A stretch of DNA of 20,147 nucleotides from Candidatus Bipolaricaulota bacterium. Its GTDB lineage: Bacteria; Bipolaricaulota; Bipolaricaulia; UBA7950; UBA9294. Position 1 is the first letter of the stretch. The number at the start of each line of letters is the position of its first letter. The notes under the pieces were generated by a model. It had not been told where the DNA came from and did not search any database. It saw only the letters and a program-made list of their open reading frames with translations. Position numbers and translations under genes: made by a program. Positions 2,419-20,145 of this stretch are shown piece after piece. The DNA lies in contig JAUWNS010000020.1 of the NCBI GenBank assembly GCA_030612485.1, forward strand, positions 1-20,147, in the 5' to 3' direction.

Positions 2419-2642
2419 TCAAGCTGCCGTCCATTTCGGGAAGAGAGGCTGTGAAAGCCTTCCAGAGGTTAGGTTATGAGATCGATCATCAGACCGGAAG
2501 TCACATCATCCTTAGGCATGTGAAGCCTCCTTACCGCAGGCTCACCGTGCCATCTCACAAAGAAGTGGCCAAAGGCACCTTGCGCGCGCTGATTCGCCAA
2601 GCAGGTCTGACTGTGAAGGAATTTCTGGAGCTCTTGAAATGA
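2415..2642 (+). CDS. hicA: HicA-family mRNA interferase toxin
   Basis: HicA toxins are small double-stranded-RNA-binding-fold proteins that cleave mRNA. The start chosen is the GTG at 2415, which overlaps the hicB stop (GTGA) and has GAGGTGA just upstream. The same frame is open further upstream but there it only overlaps hicB. The 75-residue product contains SGREAVKAFQRLGYEID, the catalytic-histidine motif G28-S29-H30 and a C-terminal IRQAGLTVKEFLELL helix, all typical of the family. Length is normal. Its own stop overlaps the ATG of the restriction-enzyme C-terminal fragment (ATGA), so the toxin gene is translationally linked to a restriction-modification component, which is unusual. Confidence 0.9.
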   Translation: MIKLPSISGREAVKAFQRLGYEIDHQTGSHIILRHVKPPYRRLTVPSHKEVAKGTLRALIRQAGLTVKEFLELLK

Positions 2643-3259
2643 AGAGAAAAAATAAGGTGAGCGATCAAGAAGCCTTCACCGAGATTCTCACATTCGTGGA
2701 TGAACGGCTGGAGAAGGGCCACCAGCCCGATCCTGAACTCGTGAGCGCGCACAATGCCGATCCCACGAACAAAAACTTCCAACTTGATTCCAACGCTCCT
2801 TGTGAACAGTCCGATGTCGTTCACGATCTCCTCGCGTTCCTCGCCGAGCAGATGATCGAACTGAACCGGCAAAAGCAAGAGAAGATGAGAGCCTTTCTTA
2901 AGTGGCTGAAGGCGGAATTGGAAGTGCAGGTGGATAAGAAGGGACTAACCGGAATTGAGGCGCTGACCGGGAAGACGAAACTCAAGAACTACCTCGGCGA
3001 CTATCAAAAAGGCGAGGAAGCTCTGCCCTTCGATGAGTTGTGGGAGATACTGCGCAAGAACAAACGCCACATTACAAAGAATCTTTCACCGGCCTTAATG
3101 CAGGCGGTAGAACAAGCCTACAATGAGAGTCTCTTTGCGCTTCTCCCCGTCAAAGAACGTCTTCGCCTTACCGACGGACTCATCGATCAGATCGTCTATC
3201 GCCTCTACGGCCTCACTGAGGAAGAGATTCAAACCGTCGAGAAGCAACCCATCAAATAG
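2639..3259 (+). CDS. Detached C-terminal region of a type IIG restriction-methyltransferase
   Basis: The 206-residue product is not a complete known protein. From about residue 58 onward it reads like the end of Eco57I-like type IIG enzymes: SDVVHDLLAFLAEQMIELN, then GKTKLKNYLGDYQKGEEALPF, then DQIVYRLYGLTEEEI. The other type IIG enzyme in this window (16855-19974) ends with the closely similar DQLVYELYGLTDEEIRIVE. The fragment begins where the upstream fragment ending at 1968 leaves off, with the toxin-antitoxin genes in between. It has an ATG overlapping the hicA stop and a weak GGAG upstream, so it could be translated and act in trans with the first half. Otherwise it is a decaying remnant. 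Identity is confident; functionality is open. Confidence 0.8.
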   Translation: MKRKNKVSDQEAFTEILTFVDERLEKGHQPDPELVSAHNADPTNKNFQLDSNAPCEQSDVVHDLLAFLAEQMIELNRQKQEKMRAFLKWLKAELEVQVDKKGLTGIEALTGKTKLKNYLGDYQKGEEALPFDELWEILRKNKRHITKNLSPALMQAVEQAYNESLFALLPVKERLRLTDGLIDQIVYRLYGLTEEEIQTVEKQPIK

Positions 3260-11504: not shown

Positions 11505-11514
11505 AACCTTTAGT

Positions 11515-11538
11515 GACTTCTAATTTCGGCTTGCACGG
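11515..11538 (+). repeat. 24-bp dispersed repeat, left copy
   Basis: Shares 22 of 24 bases, same orientation, with 20122-20145. The common core begins GACTTCTAATTTCGG and ends GCACGG. The two copies enclose the whole right-hand accessory region (about 8.6 kb). Confidence 0.7.
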
Positions 11539-12800: not shown

Positions 12801-13304
12801 TCAATCAATGTGATTTCGCCAAGCTTCGAGCCTCTTTGAACATTCGCTCTCCGGAAGCCAACTGCCGTTGGCCATGATCGCCTCCAGTGCGTTGATGGCC
12901 CGCTCGAATGAGAGCAGCCTTTGCTCGATGAGGCAATCAAGAACCCAAAGAATACCATGCACTTTCAAGCCCATCTGATGAGCATGCCACCTAAGCTTGT
13001 CGTCGCCTGTCAGCAGAACCGCACTCTTCTCAGATGCCAAGAGCAAAGCAGCAACGTCTTTGTGTGTAAGCCCTGTGTAGGAAGCAGCTGTCAGCTGAAG
13101 ACGCAGGACCTCGTCACCAGTAAGGTGATGTATTTGGAGTCCGAGTGCTTCGAGCTCCGACGCACTGACGTCCTGTGCCTCCCCGCAAACCAGATCTGGG
13201 GAGTATGCGGCCCCCAGCATGTGCAGAGTTTCTCGTAAGATGCCGCCATGGCAGATATCGATGATGACGGTAGCATCTAAGACACAAATCTGGTCGTTCT
13301 CCAA
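12801..13304 (-). CDS. PIN-domain protein, likely RNase toxin partner of the ImmA/IrrE regulator
   Basis: A 167-residue protein with the acidic residues of a PIN nuclease in order: D10 (VLDATVIIDI), E42, D83 (THKDVAALLLA) and D101 in LLTGDDKLR. PIN proteins cleave RNA using bound metal ions and are common toxins. The start is a TTG at 13304 preceded by GAGGGGG. The gene lies 18 bp after the XRE-ImmA/IrrE gene. Pairing of an HTH-Zn-peptidase regulator with a PIN or PIN-like (for example DUF4411) protein is a known toxin-antitoxin layout. The substrate is unknown. The last 40 residues (LSFERAINALEAIMANGSWLPE) are an added helical tail. Confidence 0.8.
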   Translation of the reverse strand: MENDQICVLDATVIIDICHGGILRETLHMLGAAYSPDLVCGEAQDVSASELEALGLQIHHLTGDEVLRLQLTAASYTGLTHKDVAALLLASEKSAVLLTGDDKLRWHAHQMGLKVHGILWVLDCLIEQRLLSFERAINALEAIMANGSWLPESECSKRLEAWRNHID

Positions 13305-13322: not shown

Positions 13323-14321
13323 TCAGCTGGCTACATCGCTCAACTCCATGGCCTTGGTTCTCGAAACGAGACCCTCGGCAATCGCACGTTGCACTAATCT
13401 GGCCATTCTCGAAGTGGATTCCTGCTCCAACAAGCAGAACTCCTCTCGATGCAATCCCTTCATACGCAGAAAGCGATTGAAAGAAGAGAAATACGTGTTC
13501 GTAATAATGCCTAGGTCTTTTGCTCGATACGCCCACGCACTGATGCTCATACCATACTTCCGCTTGAGCGAACATAGTTCGCGCACGTCAAGGCGGCTCC
13601 GCCGCACGCCCAACTCCGCAACTGCTGCCTCAGCTGGAACCAGCAAGGCTCCGGCAAAGCGATTGGCCACTTTCTCGGCATTGAGACCCTCTTGATGCTT
13701 TACCATCAAGTGACCTAGCTCGTGAGCCACGGAGAACCGCTGTCGGTCTCCCACGAGATCTCTTCGTACCACGACTACAGGAGCGCCACCATCTATCTGA
13801 ACGAACAACGCATCAAAGGCTGCATGAGCATCCACTACCGCCACTTTGATGCCGTTAGACTCAAGTACCTCCATAAGATTTTCGATTGGTCCTTTTCCAA
13901 GCCCCCACTCGTGGCGCAGCTCGGAAGAGACTTTCTCTACATCGTCAATTGATGAAACCACACGCTTGGAGCAGGTCGGCATCTTAAATGCTGTCTCCAT
14001 ACTCAACAGGCTTTCAAGTTCCACGTACCGCTCTATGTGTGCCTGAGCCTTCGCAAGAACTGAAGCTTGGTCCTTCATACGCAGAGACTTCTTACAGCGG
14101 TACAGCGGTACCGTCAGGCTCACGCTCGTTGAGCTCAGAAGAAACTCGGTGCTTACACCGAGAGTATCTGCAATCGCCAGAAGCACCGATGAACTGGGCA
14201 TCATCACGTCACGCTCATACTTCGATATCGCCATCGCACTGAGGTTACACATTGCCGCCATTTCCCTTTGGCTGAGACCAGCGGCTTTCCTCCCTAGACG
14301 AATTCTGCTTCCTACGTTCAT
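13323..14321 (-). CDS. XRE-type HTH regulator fused to ImmA/IrrE (DUF955) metallopeptidase domain
   Basis: A 332-residue fusion. Residues 6-62 form an XRE helix-turn-helix (RLGRKAAGLSQREMAAMC, then AISKYERD). Residues about 140-250 form the ImmA/IrrE Zn-peptidase, with H200-E201-L-G-H204 and the downstream EKVANRFAGALLVPA segment. A C-terminal helical region follows. Such proteins act as repressor-antitoxins that may be inactivated, or that inactivate a partner, by proteolysis. The ATG has GGAGGGGGG upstream. The promoter overlaps an 11-bp inverted repeat, which strongly suggests autorepression. It heads an operon with the PIN and DUF2188 genes. Confidence 0.9.
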   Translation of the reverse strand: MNVGSRIRLGRKAAGLSQREMAAMCNLSAMAISKYERDVMMPSSSVLLAIADTLGVSTEFLLSSTSVSLTVPLYRCKKSLRMKDQASVLAKAQAHIERYVELESLLSMETAFKMPTCSKRVVSSIDDVEKVSSELRHEWGLGKGPIENLMEVLESNGIKVAVVDAHAAFDALFVQIDGGAPVVVVRRDLVGDRQRFSVAHELGHLMVKHQEGLNAEKVANRFAGALLVPAEAAVAELGVRRSRLDVRELCSLKRKYGMSISAWAYRAKDLGIITNTYFSSFNRFLRMKGLHREEFCLLEQESTSRMARLVQRAIAEGLVSRTKAMELSDVAS

Positions 14322-14336
14322 GGTTCCCCCCTCCTT

Positions 14337-14379
14337 GATGGTTTACATTATACACTTTTCTTAAGTTTTGTAAACCATC
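14337..14379 (-). promoter_or_regulatory. Promoter and inverted-repeat operator of the XRE-ImmA/PIN operon
   Basis: On the - strand TTTACA (14374-14369, 5 of 6), a 16-bp spacer and TATAAT (14352-14347) form a strong promoter. Perfect 11-bp arms GATGGTTTACA (14337-14347) and TGTAAACCATC (14369-14379) overlap the -35 on one side and the end of the -10 to the transcription start on the other. A dimeric XRE protein bound to both arms would block RNA polymerase. This is the best operator in the window. Confidence 0.85.
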
Positions 14380-14694
14380 TCATTCGTAGTCCGCGTTTGG
14401 AAAACAAACTGCACCGAGGTATTGGAAGCGGGTGACGCACCCTAACGTTTGTCAGCAATATGACGAAGCCCAGAAGAGCACTATGATGCCAACACTAACC
14501 TTGAGAGGCTGGATCTCCACGATCAACATGTAGATAGCACAAGGCTGGCGATTCCGCCCGGTTCACTCTTTTGGAGAGCATGAAAGACAGATGCTGAAAT
14601 GCTTAAAGGGGATTGATCCCCCTAGCATGCCCCTCAGAAATCCTGCTTGGAATTGAGCTACTAGCTAGCCAACAGCAAGCAGTTCAGTGGAAAG
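14380..14694. other. Intergenic region with no gene
   Basis: No protein-like frame is seen on either strand. It contains the hairpin at 14599-14628 and a short GTTTG-GAAAA-CAAAC stem at 14395-14409. It separates the TIR-protease pair from the XRE-ImmA operon and may hold distal regulatory sites, but none are recognisable. Confidence 0.6.
14599..14628 (-). terminator. Possible terminator for the TIR/protease transcripts
   Basis: GGGGAT and ATCCCC form 6 perfect pairs around a 2-base loop, inside outer arms ATGCT and AGCAT. Read on the - strand the stem is followed by TTTAAGCATTT. It lies about 140 bp past the protease stop. Confidence 0.5.
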
Positions 14695-14756
14695 GGGGAC
14701 ACAAACCTTATTTCAGGCTGCTCCTTGCGGAATTATGGTATGTGTCCCCGGAATTT
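14695..14756. repeat. REP-like palindromic element, intact copy
   Basis: GGGGACACA (14695-14703) and TGTGTCCCC (14741-14749) are perfect 9-bp inverted arms, followed by GGAATTT. The TGTGTCCCCGGAATT end is typical of the REP elements served by RAYT transposases, of which a remnant lies at 12284. It directly follows the protease stop in the gene's orientation. A second, decayed copy is at 15776-15838. Confidence 0.7.
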
Positions 14757-15706
14757 GTTGGACCGCATGCTACTCGTAGAACGAGTCGACGACGTCCCGA
14801 ATGGCATCGGCCGAGTACACCACACCAAGCCCCATTCTCTGAGTGCTACCGAGCGCCGCGTCCGAGATGGGGATCGACGCAGAGACAATCCCGAGGACGT
14901 ACGGAATCTTTTTGGCCCCGCTGACGACCGTCTTACCCCGTGGCCCGATGGTTGTCGGCTGCGGTTTGAGCACAACCACGCTGCCGCTTGACCCGGGGAA
15001 AACGTTTGCGTCAATGAGGAAACCGTCAATGCGGTCGGGGAGGCCGAAGCGAGCCCTAAGTGTGTCATTGAACGCGTAGCCTTCGAGGGGCACGGTAGCG
15101 ATCACGCCAGTCCGAAGAATCGGGGACGGATTCCGAGCATCGAATATAGCGTCCGGGTAGCCCAGGAGGAAGACCTCATCGCCCACCGTGATGTTCTCGT
15201 TCTTCAACCGGTCGGGGGTTGAGAATATGTCCAACGGGAGCCACGCGCCCTGGATTCCTTCGTTGACAACGGCGTCCGTCACGTTCACGGCAGCTACGTC
15301 GAAACCCACGTTCGGATGGAGACGCACATTGGGCAGGTACGTGCCTCTATCGCCAATGACTGGGATTTCGACGAAGCGCACCGATGATTCCTCGCCAGTC
15401 CCGACCGTGACGCGAATACGAATCGACTGCGCCACGCCCTCCGGAGGAAGGACGTGCTTATTGGTGACAAGTAGGACGTGGCCTTGATCGCCATCTGTGG
15501 GCCGAAATACGAAGAAGCCCGTACCGCACTTCGTCTCGCTTGGCCCGGCCTCAAACGTTACTAACACAGTGCTGCGCAGGAACGCCTCATCCAAGATTTG
15601 ACCTCCCCAATACTCCAAACTACTGTAGCTCAGCCGGACGTCACGGACGTGGCCAGACGTCTGACACTCGAGTTGCGTCTCCTCCGACTTCATTGCGGTC
15701 CAACAA
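14755..15706. repeat. Perfect 13-bp inverted repeat enclosing the protease gene
   Basis: TTGTTGGACCGCA (14755-14767) and TGCGGTCCAACAA (15694-15706) are exact reverse complements. They lie 2 bp outside the stop codon and directly upstream of the ATG. The outer ends GTTGGAC/GTCCAAC also match the core-site rule of integron cassettes, but no integrase or complete attC structure is present. Confidence 0.75.
14770..15693 (-). CDS. Cytoplasmic trypsin-like serine protease
   Basis: A 307-residue S1-fold protease with no signal peptide. From the ATG at 15693, the catalytic triad reads H80 in VTNKHVLP, D132 in VGFDVAAV and S236 in FPGSSGSVVV. CGTGFFVF marks the first strand of the fold, and VLGIVSASI with GLGVVYSADAI lies at the end. 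I choose this ATG because its leader aligns with that of the TIR gene. A TTG at 15741 would extend the protein by 16 residues encoded within that shared leader. No DNA- or nucleotide-binding domain is fused to it. Proteases of this kind serve as effectors in several bacterial conflict systems, and the neighbouring TIR gene suggests the same here. Its target is unknown. Confidence 0.85.
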   Translation of the reverse strand: MKSEETQLECQTSGHVRDVRLSYSSLEYWGGQILDEAFLRSTVLVTFEAGPSETKCGTGFFVFRPTDGDQGHVLLVTNKHVLPPEGVAQSIRIRVTVGTGEESSVRFVEIPVIGDRGTYLPNVRLHPNVGFDVAAVNVTDAVVNEGIQGAWLPLDIFSTPDRLKNENITVGDEVFLLGYPDAIFDARNPSPILRTGVIATVPLEGYAFNDTLRARFGLPDRIDGFLIDANVFPGSSGSVVVLKPQPTTIGPRGKTVVSGAKKIPYVLGIVSASIPISDAALGSTQRMGLGVVYSADAIRDVVDSFYE

Positions 15707-15770
15707 TGATTATTGTGCAACTCCGCAACATAGTACGCCAAAGAGCGGCGGGGGCCAACTCCCTTCCCGT
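15702..15770 (-). promoter_or_regulatory. Promoter/leader of the protease gene, homologous to that of the TIR gene
   Basis: By hand alignment about 51 of 66 positions match the region 16739-16804 upstream of the TIR gene. The best match is at the gene-proximal end (AACAATGATT) and the distal end (CAACTC and TTCCCGT). On the - strand TACTAT could serve as -10, 17 bp from TTGGCC, where the TIR copy has TTGACA. This promoter is therefore probably the weaker of the two. Confidence 0.6.
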
Positions 15771-15775
15771 GAATT

Positions 15776-15838
15776 CGAGTGACATAGATTCTATTCCAGG
15801 CTGCTCTTTGAGAACTATGGTATGCGTTCCCGGAATTC
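15776..15838. repeat. REP-like palindromic element, decayed copy
   Basis: Aligned to 14695-14756 it shares CAGGCTGCTC, TATGGTATG and CCCGGAATT, with substitutions between. The arm facing the protease promoter has lost its complementarity. It lies just after the TIR stop, as the intact copy lies just after the protease stop. Confidence 0.65.
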
Positions 15839-15857
15839 CTGCCGAACCCTTAGAATT

Positions 15858-16727
15858 CTAACCGTTTGCTGTGTTCGGGTCAAAGTCTCCCACGTCAATC
15901 CCTGCTTCATCAAACAGTCTGAGATCCGCGAGACATCGCGCTGAGAACCAGTGTTCTGGTGCCCACTTGTGCAGACGCATGTAGTTAGCCCCCATAGCGA
16001 CCAGCAGAACATCCTCGAACGTGGTGATCTGCCCCTGACGCCGTCCAGAATGCAGGGCTTCGCAGATCGCCTTCGGGTCAATACCATTAATGCACTTTCG
16101 CAATTGCGCAACAGATGAGAACCCCATGTGCTCTAGGTGTCCAGCCAGATAGGAGTATGAGAAAGGAGTCATGCGCCCATCGGTTCCATAGGTCTCATCT
16201 AGGAAGGCCTTAAGTTCAAACTGGTCGAGCTCTCCGGTCCTCCGGGAAGAGGATGCAGTCATCTGGTCATCCTGTGAGAGAACCACCTCTCTCCGGCCTT
16301 CACGCCGCAATTTGTCAATCAGTAAACGAGCTGTCGAAACGGCATCATACGGTGGCCAAGTGAGATACCCTGTGGTGGGTAGCATCCCTGGTATCTCTGT
16401 ACCATCCAGGCGAATTGGCAGTAGGTACTCTCCTTGTTCTTGAAACGCCCGAGCCTGAGCTGCCTTCCGTTCGTGGCTAGCCCACAGTTTCTTGGCGTAG
16501 TGTTTCGACAAGAACGCAACGCAGAAACACGCACGGTTCTGGTAAATATCGACTAGGTAAGTGTAAAGGTCGCGACCCCAAAGCCTGGGACGCTCGAACT
16601 CGTCGTAGAACACACTCACACCACGGCGGACAAGCTCGTCGGCCAATGACCTCGCATGCCGCCGGTCTTCACCAGCGAAGGAGATTGCCACATCATAGAA
16701 TATGTTCTTCCGACTATCAGATGTCAT
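15858..16727 (-). CDS. TIR-domain protein with an unrecognised C-terminal domain
   Basis: A 289-residue protein. Residues about 9-145 form a TIR domain: YDVAISFAGEDRRHARSLADEL, VSVFYDEFERPRLWG, FCVAFLSKHYAKKLWASHERKA. E86 in the WxxxE segment is at the position of the catalytic glutamate of NAD-cleaving TIRs. In bacteria such TIRs deplete NAD+ or make cyclic ADP-ribose signals in anti-phage defence. Residues about 165-289 (ELDQFELKAFLDETYGTDGRM...) form a second, probably helical domain that I do not recognise and that could be the sensor or a partner-binding module. The ATG at 16727 has AGGA 9 bases upstream. The neighbours are a type IIG enzyme upstream and the protease downstream. Confidence 0.85.
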   Translation of the reverse strand: MTSDSRKNIFYDVAISFAGEDRRHARSLADELVRRGVSVFYDEFERPRLWGRDLYTYLVDIYQNRACFCVAFLSKHYAKKLWASHERKAAQARAFQEQGEYLLPIRLDGTEIPGMLPTTGYLTWPPYDAVSTARLLIDKLRREGRREVVLSQDDQMTASSSRRTGELDQFELKAFLDETYGTDGRMTPFSYSYLAGHLEHMGFSSVAQLRKCINGIDPKAICEALHSGRRQGQITTFEDVLLVAMGANYMRLHKWAPEHWFSARCLADLRLFDEAGIDVGDFDPNTANG

Positions 16728-16738
16728 GATGGAGTCCT

Positions 16739-16804
16739 AACAATGATTCTTTTGCAGCTCTGCAGAATATACCGGAGAGCAGCGGATGTCAACTCTATTC
16801 CCGT
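16739..16804 (-). promoter_or_regulatory. Promoter/leader of the TIR gene
   Basis: On the - strand a perfect TTGACA (16792-16787) is followed after 17 bp by TATTCT, or after 15 bp by TATATT. The start would be near 16757, giving a leader of about 30 nt. Sequence homologous to this region precedes the protease gene (15702-15770). Confidence 0.65.
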
Positions 16805-16854
16805 CCTCTGTTGGGATATCCGATGGCAAGATGTAGGCCTCTGGGATCCGACAC

Positions 16855-19800
16855 TCACTTCGTGCCTTCCTCGACGATGCGGATTTCTTCGTCGGTCAGG
16901 CCGTAGAGTTCGTAGACGAGTTGGTCGATCTGCTTGTCGGTGGCGTCGATCTGGCGCTGGATGAGCGATTTCTCGTGATTGGTCTTGGCGGCTTGAAGAT
17001 TCTTGTGCAGTTTGAGCATCGTCTCTACCAGTTCGACCATCCGGTCGTGACGGGTTTTGTCGGTGGGGTCGGAGAAGTCAATCGTGCAGATGGGGAGTCG
17101 CTCGATGAACTGTGTGAAGTAACGGAAGAACCCGCCCCGCATGGTCGTGCTGATGCGCTTCAGGTAGAAGTCGAGAAGTAAACTGTTCAGCAGGGCGAGA
17201 ACGTACTTCGGCGATTCCTGCACATCCGGGCGCAAGGTAATGCCGTAACCACTCGTGAAAGCATAGTCGCCGCCTTCGTCTAGGGCGAATGACGCACGAT
17301 TAGCAATATCCGGTACGAGAATCTTAGTCGAGGACATAACTTCTACGTTTTTGGGATACACATACCCATACCAATATGGACCTTTCATCCTGCCTCGCTC
17401 ACGCTCTTCTAAGTAAGATTTATTCTCTTGCAGATAGGTATGGGTATTGGGAAATCGCTGCTCGAATTCCTTCTCTGGGATAAGCGTGGTTCGTCCATCT
17501 CTGACTCGGTAAGGTATGATAATAATCTGGCCTGACGGCAAGATCTGGTAGGGCTTGATCTCACGTCCTTTCAAGAATAGCGTTGTTGCATCTCTTTCCA
17601 GAACTACAATACGGTCTAGTTTTTTCGAGTATGCCTGTATCAATTTCCCGGCATCTGTCACCAAATCCAACACATAGACTTCGTTGGCGCTGGTTCTAAT
17701 ACCCTGAGCTACTCGTGTTGCTACATCTCCCAACTTGACCGGCATATCACTCAACTGCTCAAACAGCGCCGCCCCCGGCCCCACAACAAAGTTCCACTCC
17801 TTCTCCGTGGCCTTATCAGTTCTGATCTCGCCTTCAATGGCCTCGCCGTTTGTCCGCCAGGCATTCAGATCATGTGCCTTGACGTAGCGGAAGCGCTTGT
17901 TGCCTGTCTTGTTCAGGAAGAGCAGACAGGTGTAGGTAGAAGCTCCGGCAAAGACCTGCTGGTCACCGAAGTGGACGACTTCGCTCAGGTGGCTTCCGCT
18001 GGCAATCAACTCACGCAGTGCTTGACCGTACTTTGCTTGGAAGAACTTGTGAGGCATGATGAACCCCATCCTGCCGAGATCATTCAGCAGTTGCAGAACC
18101 CGCTCCACAAAGACAACATAGATATCGTAGTTGCCTTTGCTGGCTGCGGTGTAGCGTTTCTTGTAGAACTCGACCTCGATCGGCGCCCACTCTTTCATCG
18201 CTTGGATGCGAATGTATGGCGGATTCCCGATCACGGCGTCGAAACCATTCCCCTCACCCTGCCCTCTCCCAGCAGGAGAGGGTGCGAATATCTCCGGGAA
18301 CTCGGCATCCCAATCGAAGGCGTTGATGCGATAGCGTTCTTCATCATCGAGAAGGCTTAGCTGTTGGCCTTCATAGAAGTCGGGCCCAATGAGAGAGTTG
18401 CCACACTTGATGTTGTCGCCCAAATCAGGGAGCGCGCGCTCATGGAAGAGCTTGAAGGTTTTCCCCAGCGTCTCTGCGTTCTCCCCTTCGAGGACCTTGA
18501 GAAGCAGCGATAGCTTGGTCACTTCCACCGCCTGCGTGTCGATGTCCACGCCGTAGATGTTGTTGAGCAGGATGCGCTTCTTTTCAGCGGTAGTCAGTCG
18601 CCACACCCCCTCACCCTGCCCTCTCCCATGGGGAGAGGGAGAAATGGTGCGGTAGATCTTGGGTGATCGTCCTTTCGCGTGCTTCTCAGGATCGTGTTCC
18701 TGGTACCACTCCTGGTGCCAGTCGAGGAGATATTGATACGCACCGAGGAGGAACGACCCTGAGCCGCAAGCAGGATCGAGCACCCTGATCTTCGCCACTT
18801 TGGTTGGGGTGTTCCCTTCAAGGAGCTTCCCCACGGTGTTCTTGACGATGTAGTCCACGATGTAGGTGGGGGTGTAATAGACGCCACCGGCTTTCTTCAC
18901 CTCTGGCTTGTCCTCCACCTTGGCGCGATGGCCAGGTGTCAAGCGGATCACCTTGCCGAGGAACTGCTCGTAGATGTGGCCGAGGATGTCTGCGGGGAGG
19001 ACGGAGAACTCAAATGGACTTTCCGGGTAGTAGAGGCCTTTGAAGATCTCCTTCAGCACTTTGTCGTCGATGGTGAGATTGAGCGTAAGGTCGTCGGGCG
19101 GATCGGGGCGAGTCTTCTCCGCAGCAAAGTGGAACAGGCCGGAATTGTAGCGCTCATCGGCACGGCGGAAGATCTGACAGAGGCGCTCGTAAGCCTGCGT
19201 CCCGTTTTGCAAACCTCTAAGTTGGCCGTAGGTCTCGATTCCCCGATCCTCGCAGATGCGCAGGAAGATGATCCGATCGACCGTCCGCTGCACGGCGTAG
19301 TTGAGCTCGCGCGTGGAGAGGCTCGGGTTGCGCAGGGCGATGTTCCTCGCGAAGAGATCGCGCCAGTTCTCGATCTCCTTTAAGAAGGCGTCGTCCACCT
19401 CGGCTGTCCCGCGCTTCTTCTTGGCCGACTCTGCGTACCTATCGAACGACCCCTTAGGGATCGCGCCCTGCGAGAAGATCGACGCGATCTCGTCCCAACG
19501 GGCTTCGTATTCCGTGTAGGTGATGTAGAGGACACGTGCAACCGACGACTTGTCTGCCTGATTCGGCTTCACTCGGCAGTCGTAGACGGCGAACTCTTCA
19601 AAGTCGGTGAGGATGGAGAGTGGCAGTTTAGCCGACCAGGCATAACGGCGGAGTTGATAGGCCGGATCGGGATCGTTCTTGATATTCACACCGGGGCGCT
19701 TCGCCGCGACGAAGAACTTGCGCACACCGCCGATGCGGAAGGCGTAGTCCGGCGCCTTGGTCGCCCCGCCGATCTTGATCGCGTCCTCGTGCACAACGTC

Positions 19801-19974
19801 CTTGTACGCCTCGGCGTAGCCTGCTTCGTTGTACATATCCCAGCCGAGGGCCTTGAAGAATGGGTTAATCAGTTCGAGGCGCACCTGCGCTTCGTTGTAC
19901 TCACTGGAGAGGTAGGCTTCCCGATTGCGATTGAACCGTTTGACAAGCTCGCTGACTTCCTGCGGTGTCGGCAT
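16855..19974 (-). CDS. Type IIG (Eco57I-like) restriction-methyltransferase with altered nuclease motif and two in-frame palindrome inserts
   Basis: A full-length 1039-residue enzyme. The N-terminal nuclease-type domain carries PDYAFRIGG (75-83) and FFVAAKRPG (87-95). Relatives have E at position 90 (FFVEAKKP); here it is Ala (codon GCG at 19707-19705), so DNA cutting is probably lost. The methyltransferase has YYTPTYIVDYIV (366-377), DPACGSG (400-406), GVDIDTQAVEVTKLSL and NPPY (584-587). Target recognition covers about 745-960, and the end is LYGLTDEEIRIVEEG. Two near-identical short segments, PSPHGRGQGEG (446-456) and PSPAGRGQGEG (565-575), interrupt the family sequence; each is encoded by a palindromic repeat. 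The ATG is preceded by AGAGGAG. It is likely a methyltransferase-only or otherwise modified enzyme. It may be transcribed from its own promoter. Confidence 0.92.
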   Translation of the reverse strand: MPTPQEVSELVKRFNRNREAYLSSEYNEAQVRLELINPFFKALGWDMYNEAGYAEAYKDVVHEDAIKIGGATKAPDYAFRIGGVRKFFVAAKRPGVNIKNDPDPAYQLRRYAWSAKLPLSILTDFEEFAVYDCRVKPNQADKSSVARVLYITYTEYEARWDEIASIFSQGAIPKGSFDRYAESAKKKRGTAEVDDAFLKEIENWRDLFARNIALRNPSLSTRELNYAVQRTVDRIIFLRICEDRGIETYGQLRGLQNGTQAYERLCQIFRRADERYNSGLFHFAAEKTRPDPPDDLTLNLTIDDKVLKEIFKGLYYPESPFEFSVLPADILGHIYEQFLGKVIRLTPGHRAKVEDKPEVKKAGGVYYTPTYIVDYIVKNTVGKLLEGNTPTKVAKIRVLDPACGSGSFLLGAYQYLLDWHQEWYQEHDPEKHAKGRSPKIYRTISPSPHGRGQGEGVWRLTTAEKKRILLNNIYGVDIDTQAVEVTKLSLLLKVLEGENAETLGKTFKLFHERALPDLGDNIKCGNSLIGPDFYEGQQLSLLDDEERYRINAFDWDAEFPEIFAPSPAGRGQGEGNGFDAVIGNPPYIRIQAMKEWAPIEVEFYKKRYTAASKGNYDIYVVFVERVLQLLNDLGRMGFIMPHKFFQAKYGQALRELIASGSHLSEVVHFGDQQVFAGASTYTCLLFLNKTGNKRFRYVKAHDLNAWRTNGEAIEGEIRTDKATEKEWNFVVGPGAALFEQLSDMPVKLGDVATRVAQGIRTSANEVYVLDLVTDAGKLIQAYSKKLDRIVVLERDATTLFLKGREIKPYQILPSGQIIIIPYRVRDGRTTLIPEKEFEQRFPNTHTYLQENKSYLEERERGRMKGPYWYGYVYPKNVEVMSSTKILVPDIANRASFALDEGGDYAFTSGYGITLRPDVQESPKYVLALLNSLLLDFYLKRISTTMRGGFFRYFTQFIERLPICTIDFSDPTDKTRHDRMVELVETMLKLHKNLQAAKTNHEKSLIQRQIDATDKQIDQLVYELYGLTDEEIRIVEEGTK
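18250..18283 (-). repeat. In-frame palindromic insert 2 within the type IIG gene
   Basis: CCCTCTCC (18262-18269) and GGAGAGGG (18275-18282) pair around CAGCA, with CCCCTCACCCTG on one side. On the coding strand it adds residues of the form APSPAGRGQGEG just before the NPPY region, where relatives pass from EFPEI directly to GGFDAVIGNPPY. The frame is kept. Confidence 0.8.
18606..18640 (-). repeat. In-frame palindromic insert 1 within the type IIG gene
   Basis: CCCTCTCCC (18619-18627) and GGGAGAGGG (18631-18639) form 9-bp perfect arms around ATG, with the same CCCTCACCCTG flank. On the coding strand it adds SPSPHGRGQGEG between KIYRTI and WRLTTAEKKRILLNNIYG. Same reading frame and orientation as the other insert. 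Confidence 0.8.
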
Positions 19975-20032: not shown

Positions 20033-20121
20033 AACGCTACTTGCCTTTTATTAGCGGTTCCTTGTCGTTTCGCTTGCCTCTACCTGGCGGTAGACAGGTG
20101 CTGCAGGCAGGAATGGGTAGC

Positions 20122-20145
20122 GACTTCTAATTTCGGTTCGCACGG
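20122..20145 (+). repeat. 24-bp dispersed repeat, right copy
   Basis: Matches 11515-11538 at 22 of 24 positions in the same orientation. The window ends two bases later, so the full extent cannot be seen. Just before it (about 20078-20118) is a GC-rich stretch with CTACC/GGTAG and ACCTG/CAGGT inverted motifs. Confidence 0.65.

Follow-up and report, generated by a model that had tools for sequence, protein, structure and literature searches.

In a 20,147-nucleotide (nt) stretch of contig JAUWNS010000020.1 from a Candidatus Bipolaricaulota bacterium (the window, meaning this whole stretch), genes for a TIR protein and for a trypsin-like protease stand in tandem on the minus strand, each enclosed by an upstream block (U) and a downstream element (D). 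The upstream blocks are homologous to each other, as are the downstream elements, and the two pairs have diverged to a similar extent, 21% for U and 23% for D. With middling confidence, we read the locus as two single-gene defence units whose flanks would stem from one duplication, with the protease open reading frame (ORF) dropped into one of them without an export signal. The features concerned are the following.

16739..16804, minus strand: U1, 5' block of the TIR gene, containing the sigma70-like promoter TTGACA-17-TATTCT (16792-16764)
15858..16727, minus strand: TIR gene, 289 amino acids (aa), Pfam TIR_2 2.8e-15
15776..15838, minus strand: D1, element 3' of the TIR gene, no longer palindromic, with 77.0% identity to D2
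15702..15770, minus strand: U2, 5' block of the protease gene, sharing 78.8% identity with U1 and without a promoter-like site of at least 9/12
15694..15706, minus strand: perfect 13-bp inverted repeat, start-side copy (TTGTTGGACCGCA), directly adjoining the protease ATG
14770..15693, minus strand: trypsin-like protease gene, PADLOC PDC-S45 (3.9e-31), Trypsin_2 2.5e-09
14755..14767, minus strand: stop-side copy of the 13-bp repeat (TGCGGTCCAACAA), 2 bp past the stop codon; 2 bp of it also belong to the start of D2
14695..14756, minus strand: D2, palindrome 3' of the protease gene, with ends GGGGACACATACC / GGTTTGTGTCCCC as in RAYT-type repetitive extragenic palindromic (REP)/miniature inverted-repeat transposable element (MITE) sequences

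A unit composed of an upstream block, an ORF and a palindromic element would have been duplicated in a single event, giving homologous 5' and 3' flanks, and later the ORF of one copy would have been replaced by that of a PDC-S45 protease. To this swap the protease would owe both the 13-bp inverted repeats that flank its ORF and the absence of a signal peptide, which most listed relatives appear to have. Judged from the protein families, the most likely functions are those of a TIR protein that, by way of its own C-terminal part, cleaves NAD+ or makes an ADP-ribose-type signal upon phage infection, and of a protease that serves as a separate effector. The two genes may be co-expressed, and nothing shows an action of one on the other.

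Homologous flanks of the two genes

Alignment of U1 with U2 gave identity at 52/66 paired columns (14/66 differ) with 3 gap columns, and the strict local score of 53 was reached by 0/1905 random window pairs (maximum 46), bearing out an earlier reading of the letters alone (the sequence-only reading) that had put the likeness of these 66-69 bp blocks at about 77%. Longer upstream flanks scored 95, compared with a mean of 37.4 (standard deviation [SD] 6.9, maximum 65) for 300 dinucleotide shuffles. Downstream, D1 and D2 share 47/61 paired bases (14/61 differ) with 1 gap column, and their score of 70 compares with a mean of 26.8 (SD 5.0, maximum 44) in 300 such shuffles. The coding regions are unrelated, as had also been claimed, with a BLASTP E value of 2.5 between the two proteins. 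Since the flanks are homologous and lie in tandem on one strand, a common flank origin and possible co-expression are reasonable.

In a gapped scan of both strands of the window, U1, U2, D1 and D2 each matched their own partner only, with scores of 51-57. The next-best places scored 20-27 with shuffled-query maxima of 25-27, among them a secondary match of D2 near 13501 on the plus strand, whose score of 27 is slightly over its shuffle maximum of 25. The U block was absent before 7 other window genes, where scores of 11-18 compare with 95th percentiles of 18-19 for the null. With no third copy of U, the upstream similarity did not turn out to be a common repeat dispersed within the window, a possibility that had been raised at the outset. 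Homology of both flanks, their near-equal divergence and the lack of a third U or D copy in the window support the duplication reading.

Rather unlikely, in our judgement, is the alternative that U and D are ordinary dispersed repeats of the host genome, whose pairing around two neighbouring genes would be a coincidence. Its support comes from D2, whose ends place it in the dispersed RAYT-type class of palindromes. The arms of D2 are 20 nt long and 85% complementary, with a folding z-score of -2.6. The pattern of both D2 ends was matched in 1/281 genomes (G557), at six places. In this genome (loci L046-L050 and L052), palindromes with ends GGGGACACGTACC and a Y1_Tnp gene make up a clean RAYT/MITE pair; the gene is bracketed by D2-type ends (L052, 1156 and 1963). 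At the 5/6 places examined, the palindromes lie between ORFs of at least 110 aa or cover the final 16 bases of such an ORF. Because Y1_Tnp was detected in 4/4 genomes scanned, its bare presence is uninformative, while its bracketing by D2-type ends is informative. The recurrence of the ends at six places and around a RAYT-type gene in that genome indicates that D2 is probably a dispersed element of the RAYT-type class. The likeness to RAYT-associated REP/MITE elements, namely a palindrome with the shared ends, was found for D2 and not for D1, which despite its homology to D2 is no longer palindromic. The earlier claim of a REP-like element after each stop codon therefore stands for D2 and fails for D1. 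Terminator-like character was found in neither element by a terminator scan.

Other observations speak against dispersed repeats. The U block occurs only twice in 20 kb, each time directly before the TIR or the protease gene, the order and spacing of U and D are identical in both units, and the flanks are near-equally diverged. Searches for U gave 0 matches in 95 genomes of another phylum, none of them of the host phylum, and in viral contigs, with no known positive to calibrate them. Likewise uncalibrated by a known positive, D had 0 matches in 95 genomes, in plasmids and, as an 18-base pattern, in 148 genomes; it also had none in viral contigs, where its 15-base head matched 12 times, in no case with a palindrome as judged by eye.

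Shared promoters had been proposed for the two genes. The site in U1, TTGACA-17-TATTCT, agrees with the sigma70-like consensus at 10/12 positions, whereas the best site in U2, TTGGCC-17-TACTAT (15758-15730), has 8/12 as counted by hand and falls below the listing threshold of 9/12; a further promoter-like site, at 15883-15855 where the TIR gene ends, also has 10/12. Between U1 and U2, the promoter hexamers keep 8/12 bases and the remaining block keeps 44/54. Because the hexamers are conserved no better than the rest of the block, the pattern suggests shared descent more than selection for one common promoter. The promoter proposal thus holds for the TIR copy and not for the protease copy. Of the wider idea of two cassettes on one frame under the same control, the homologous flanks and possible co-expression are retained, but the upstream likeness looks like a product of shared descent rather than of selection for common control.

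The protease coding region and its edges

The match of the protease to PDC-S45 extends over residues 37-275, most of the protein (profile positions 18-238 of 293), and 5/5 relatives scanned match this profile too. Residues H81, D133 and S236 (numbered from one codon before the ATG) are invariant in 16 sequences and presumably are the catalytic triad. At E 0.01, the protease profile found no counterpart among solved structures. The closest relatives among the matches listed have 99% and, next, 80% identity, and 5 records of relatives on plasmids are all below 60% identity. The start of the gene is ambiguous: it is either the ATG at 15693 or a TTG at 15594 with GGGGAGG ahead, and the 99% relative (P0001) starts at the residue matching this TTG, as seen from its protein sequence only.

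The N-terminal hydrophobicity of the window protease is 0.05, and the protein has no signal-peptide-like N-terminus. Altogether 339 relatives were found, and N-termini were compared in the 120 listed. Of these 120, 86 carry 18 or more extra residues ahead of the mature part, with a hydrophobic core in 85 of the 86; another 5 have 5-17 residues there, and the remaining 29 begin no earlier than the mature part itself. The hydrophobic extension suggests export for most of the listed relatives, and the window protease, from its missing hydrophobic N-terminus, should be cytosolic. PDC-S45 is a single-gene trypsin-like candidate in PADLOC, and the window protease corresponds to it over most of the profile; it differs in lacking the signal-peptide-like N-terminus and in sitting behind a copy of the upstream block of a TIR gene.

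The 13-bp inverted repeat around the protease ORF is new relative to the sequence-only reading. Inverted repeats at the edges of 12 other window ORFs measure 4-8 bp (8 bp at the TIR gene), and 13 bp was reached by 1/3000 random flank pairs, perhaps at this very place. Perfect inverted 13-mers have 15 start positions in the window and are therefore not rare in it, so that the unusual part is the placement at the ORF edges. Very unlikely is a role of the repeat in switching the protease, either by inversion of the ORF or by pairing of the mRNA 3' end with its own ribosome-binding region. The perfect repeat does abut the ATG and stand 2 bp past the stop codon, and the two RNA flanks pair over 13 bp at -23.3 kcal/mol. 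Perfect inverted 13-mers, however, also occur elsewhere in the window, no recombinase family was detected among the 14 window ORFs covered by the Pfam scan, and at the TIR unit the longest repeat of this kind measures 8 bp.

Improbable, too, is an arrangement of integron-type cassettes, in which D1 and U2 together would form an attC-like site and the TIR and protease genes would be the cassettes. The core boxes of attC read RYYYAAC after the stop codon and GTTRRRY before the start codon. At the protease, GTTGGAC just 5' of the ATG and GTCCAAC just 3' of the stop codon fit these boxes, and the coding strand of 14300-17000 has one other full core match, a GTTGGAC inside the protease gene. In addition, D is partly complementary to reversed U (D2-U2, 1/1000 shuffles; D1-U2, 15/1000), and the units are single-gene, in tandem and all in one direction. 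The TIR gene departs from the scheme, being followed by GTTCGGC and not RYYYAAC, and the GTTAGGA of U1 is one base off, so that the pair of core boxes was found at the protease and not at the TIR gene. Moreover, D2 has no U partner downstream, which leaves the last site incomplete, the complementarity of D1-U1 (256/1000 shuffles) and D2-U1 (122/1000) is not significant, the folded D1+U2 strand is unexceptional (z -1.36), and the 14 scanned ORFs include no integrase family. An integrase search in 213 genomes of another phylum gave 82 matches at E 1e-60, and possible array flanks yielded few usable attC sites, six of which aligned poorly; the assessment of attC in the window is at the level of motif inspection.

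Several points weigh against a duplication followed by replacement of the ORF. A second TIR copy that had been replaced could have left a trace in the protease leader, and no TIR coding trace was seen there (16 compared with a null 95th percentile of 21). One element could have inserted twice, independently, to give D1 and D2, and U may be dispersed elsewhere in the host genome, the genomes searched being of other phyla. Before three protease homologues, U scored 12-19, and upstream of the protease of one of them (L003) both U blocks scored 19, with shuffle 95th percentiles of 18 and 17. The 13-bp repeat was spotted post hoc, and the missing signal peptide may partly be a matter of gene calling, since 34/120 listed relatives start late.

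The TIR protein and the protease as a possible pair

The TIR_2 domain occupies residues 13-118 of the TIR protein (Pfam 2.8e-15), and E86 is invariant across 10 aligned sequences. The profiles of ThsB (1.4e-08) and PDC-S66 (6.2e-14, profile positions 142-240 of 282) match the TIR part only, and so do the solved structures retrieved with the TIR profile, which are TIR-domain chains. The predicted structure has a mean predicted local distance difference test (pLDDT) score of 43. The C-terminal part (about 125 residues, ~165-289; 15858-16235, minus strand) is conserved in close relatives, and no family was found for it in Pfam, PADLOC or NCBIfam. Among the matches listed (120 of 1428), there are eight full-length clusters at 88-100% identity and one at 71%; the other matches listed cover 39-73% of the protein, mainly the TIR domain. 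Relatives on plasmids (11 records) are all below 60% identity, and no viral relatives of the TIR protein or the protease were found.

The sequence-only reading had the two proteins act together under one control, with the TIR signal or NAD+ loss gating the protease, or the protease activating the TIR protein. Such a true two-gene system appears unlikely to us. In its favour, the genes are adjacent on the same strand behind homologous upstream blocks, both proteins match PADLOC candidate defence families (the TIR protein through its TIR part only), and the window protease, lacking a signal peptide, would be cytosolic. There are also precedents: according to PMC12847820, type IV Thoeris couples TIR to a caspase-like protease, and PMC12799240 describes trypsin-like proteases that activate partner nucleases, with nuclease-protease pairs of Hachiman and AVAST. 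The earlier appeal to conflict systems is upheld to the extent that type IV Thoeris, as presented there, pairs TIR with a protease and that a TIR gene adjoins a protease gene in the window. The window protease differs in being of the Trypsin_2 family with no caspase family match, and its adjacency to TIR was not seen in 5 other protease loci. With the Hachiman and AVAST pairs, as far as that source portrays them, the window shares a trypsin-like protease in a defence locus, but it has no MBL-type nuclease among the scanned ORFs, and its protease is unfused to any defence core gene. A search of the open-access literature by titles and abstract openings found no two-gene system of TIR and a trypsin-like protease, in agreement with the earlier statement that no named system was known with exactly this pair and layout.

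Conserved adjacency of the two genes had been suggested as a check. A pattern-based scan with one genome per species gave three protease relatives (L001-L003, 38-76% identity), and a search of 395 genomes from one phylum added two more protease loci at 38-40% identity (3/395, counting the genome of L002 itself). Among 95 genomes from the phylum of L001, only the one that carries L001 had a match. A TIR domain was present in 0/5 of these loci within the DNA examined, which is limited by contig ends (L001, 6.7 kb in total; L002, ~1 kb, and L058, ~0.6 kb, on one side), and the window was recovered as the positive control. The protease neighbours in L002 and L003 showed no clear defence role on ORF inspection, two of those in L002 being without a family match. 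In L001 (764-3418), from a Methylomirabilota metagenome-assembled genome, the genes immediately after that of the PDC-S45 protease encode an XhoI-type restriction enzyme and a methyltransferase, so that restriction genes are neighbours here as well. For an obligate pair, similar numbers of relatives would be expected, and 8 close TIR clusters were found versus 1 protease cluster above 80% identity, an argument weakened by fragmentary assemblies. A single control of both genes is further opposed by U2, in which no promoter-like site reaches 9/12, and export in the protease relatives fits poorly with gating by a cytosolic TIR signal. Joint action of the TIR protein and the protease is thus unsupported by the five other loci and the cluster counts.

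Surroundings of the units and implications

The defence-like stretch spans ~12.8 to 20 kb of the window, with its main genes on the minus strand. Besides the two units, it holds the following genes.

16855..19974, minus strand: type IIG restriction enzyme-methyltransferase gene (PADLOC REase_MTase_IIG 6e-266), adjoining the TIR gene in a defence-island context
13323..14321, minus strand: helix-turn-helix (HTH) and ImmA/IrrE-type gene, 3' of the protease gene
12801..13304, minus strand: gene that we take to be PIN-like, 3' of the protease gene, with weak matches to both DUF3368 and PDC-S70

The HTH-ImmA gene has a promoter-like site, TTTACA-16-TATAAT (14347-14374), within an apparent palindrome, GATGGTTTACA ... 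TGTAAACCATC, read by eye, which is a possible operator for self-regulation. A direct repeat of 28 nt, 89% identical (11511-11538 and 20118-20145, 8607 from start to start), brackets the defence-like stretch and may mark the borders of an island. The housekeeping part of the window encodes a UPF0047/YjbQ-like protein, a CDP-alcohol phosphatidyltransferase, triosephosphate isomerase TpiA, an SPFH protein and MnmG. The TpiA sequence points to a host in or near Bipolaricaulota: of its 120 listed relatives, the three with an organism name are two Bipolaricaulota and one Acetothermia (same phylum), at 60-62% identity, and others reach 91%. No genome of this phylum was recognised among 290 relatives of genome G001 or 342 of genome G648, and in marker comparisons of 30 genomes and 23 loci the top candidates were not close to the host. 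A further Eco57I-type methyltransferase gene at 1-1968 runs off the window edge. After it come a HicA-toxin ORF (2259-2642, Pfam 6.7e-18) and an ORF at 2639-3259, whose end shows 72% DNA complementarity with that of the other, type IIG gene; this may be a case of an interrupted gene. An Rfam search of the window gave no match.

A more general version of the ORF swap would be an expression frame whose upstream block and 3' palindrome stay fixed, in which whole ORFs are exchanged from start to stop codon via short inverted repeats at their edges, without a classical integron, and through which an exported protease became a cytosolic effector under the control region of the TIR gene. We regard this as quite improbable. 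If it were true, a genome would have a means of bringing defence effectors of unrelated kinds under a single control, and further units could be sought with the frame sequence. If the locus arose by plain duplication, it would be a clear case of a shared promoter region misleading toward a proposed functional pair, and it would still present a mostly exported protease family with one copy that lacks the export signal.

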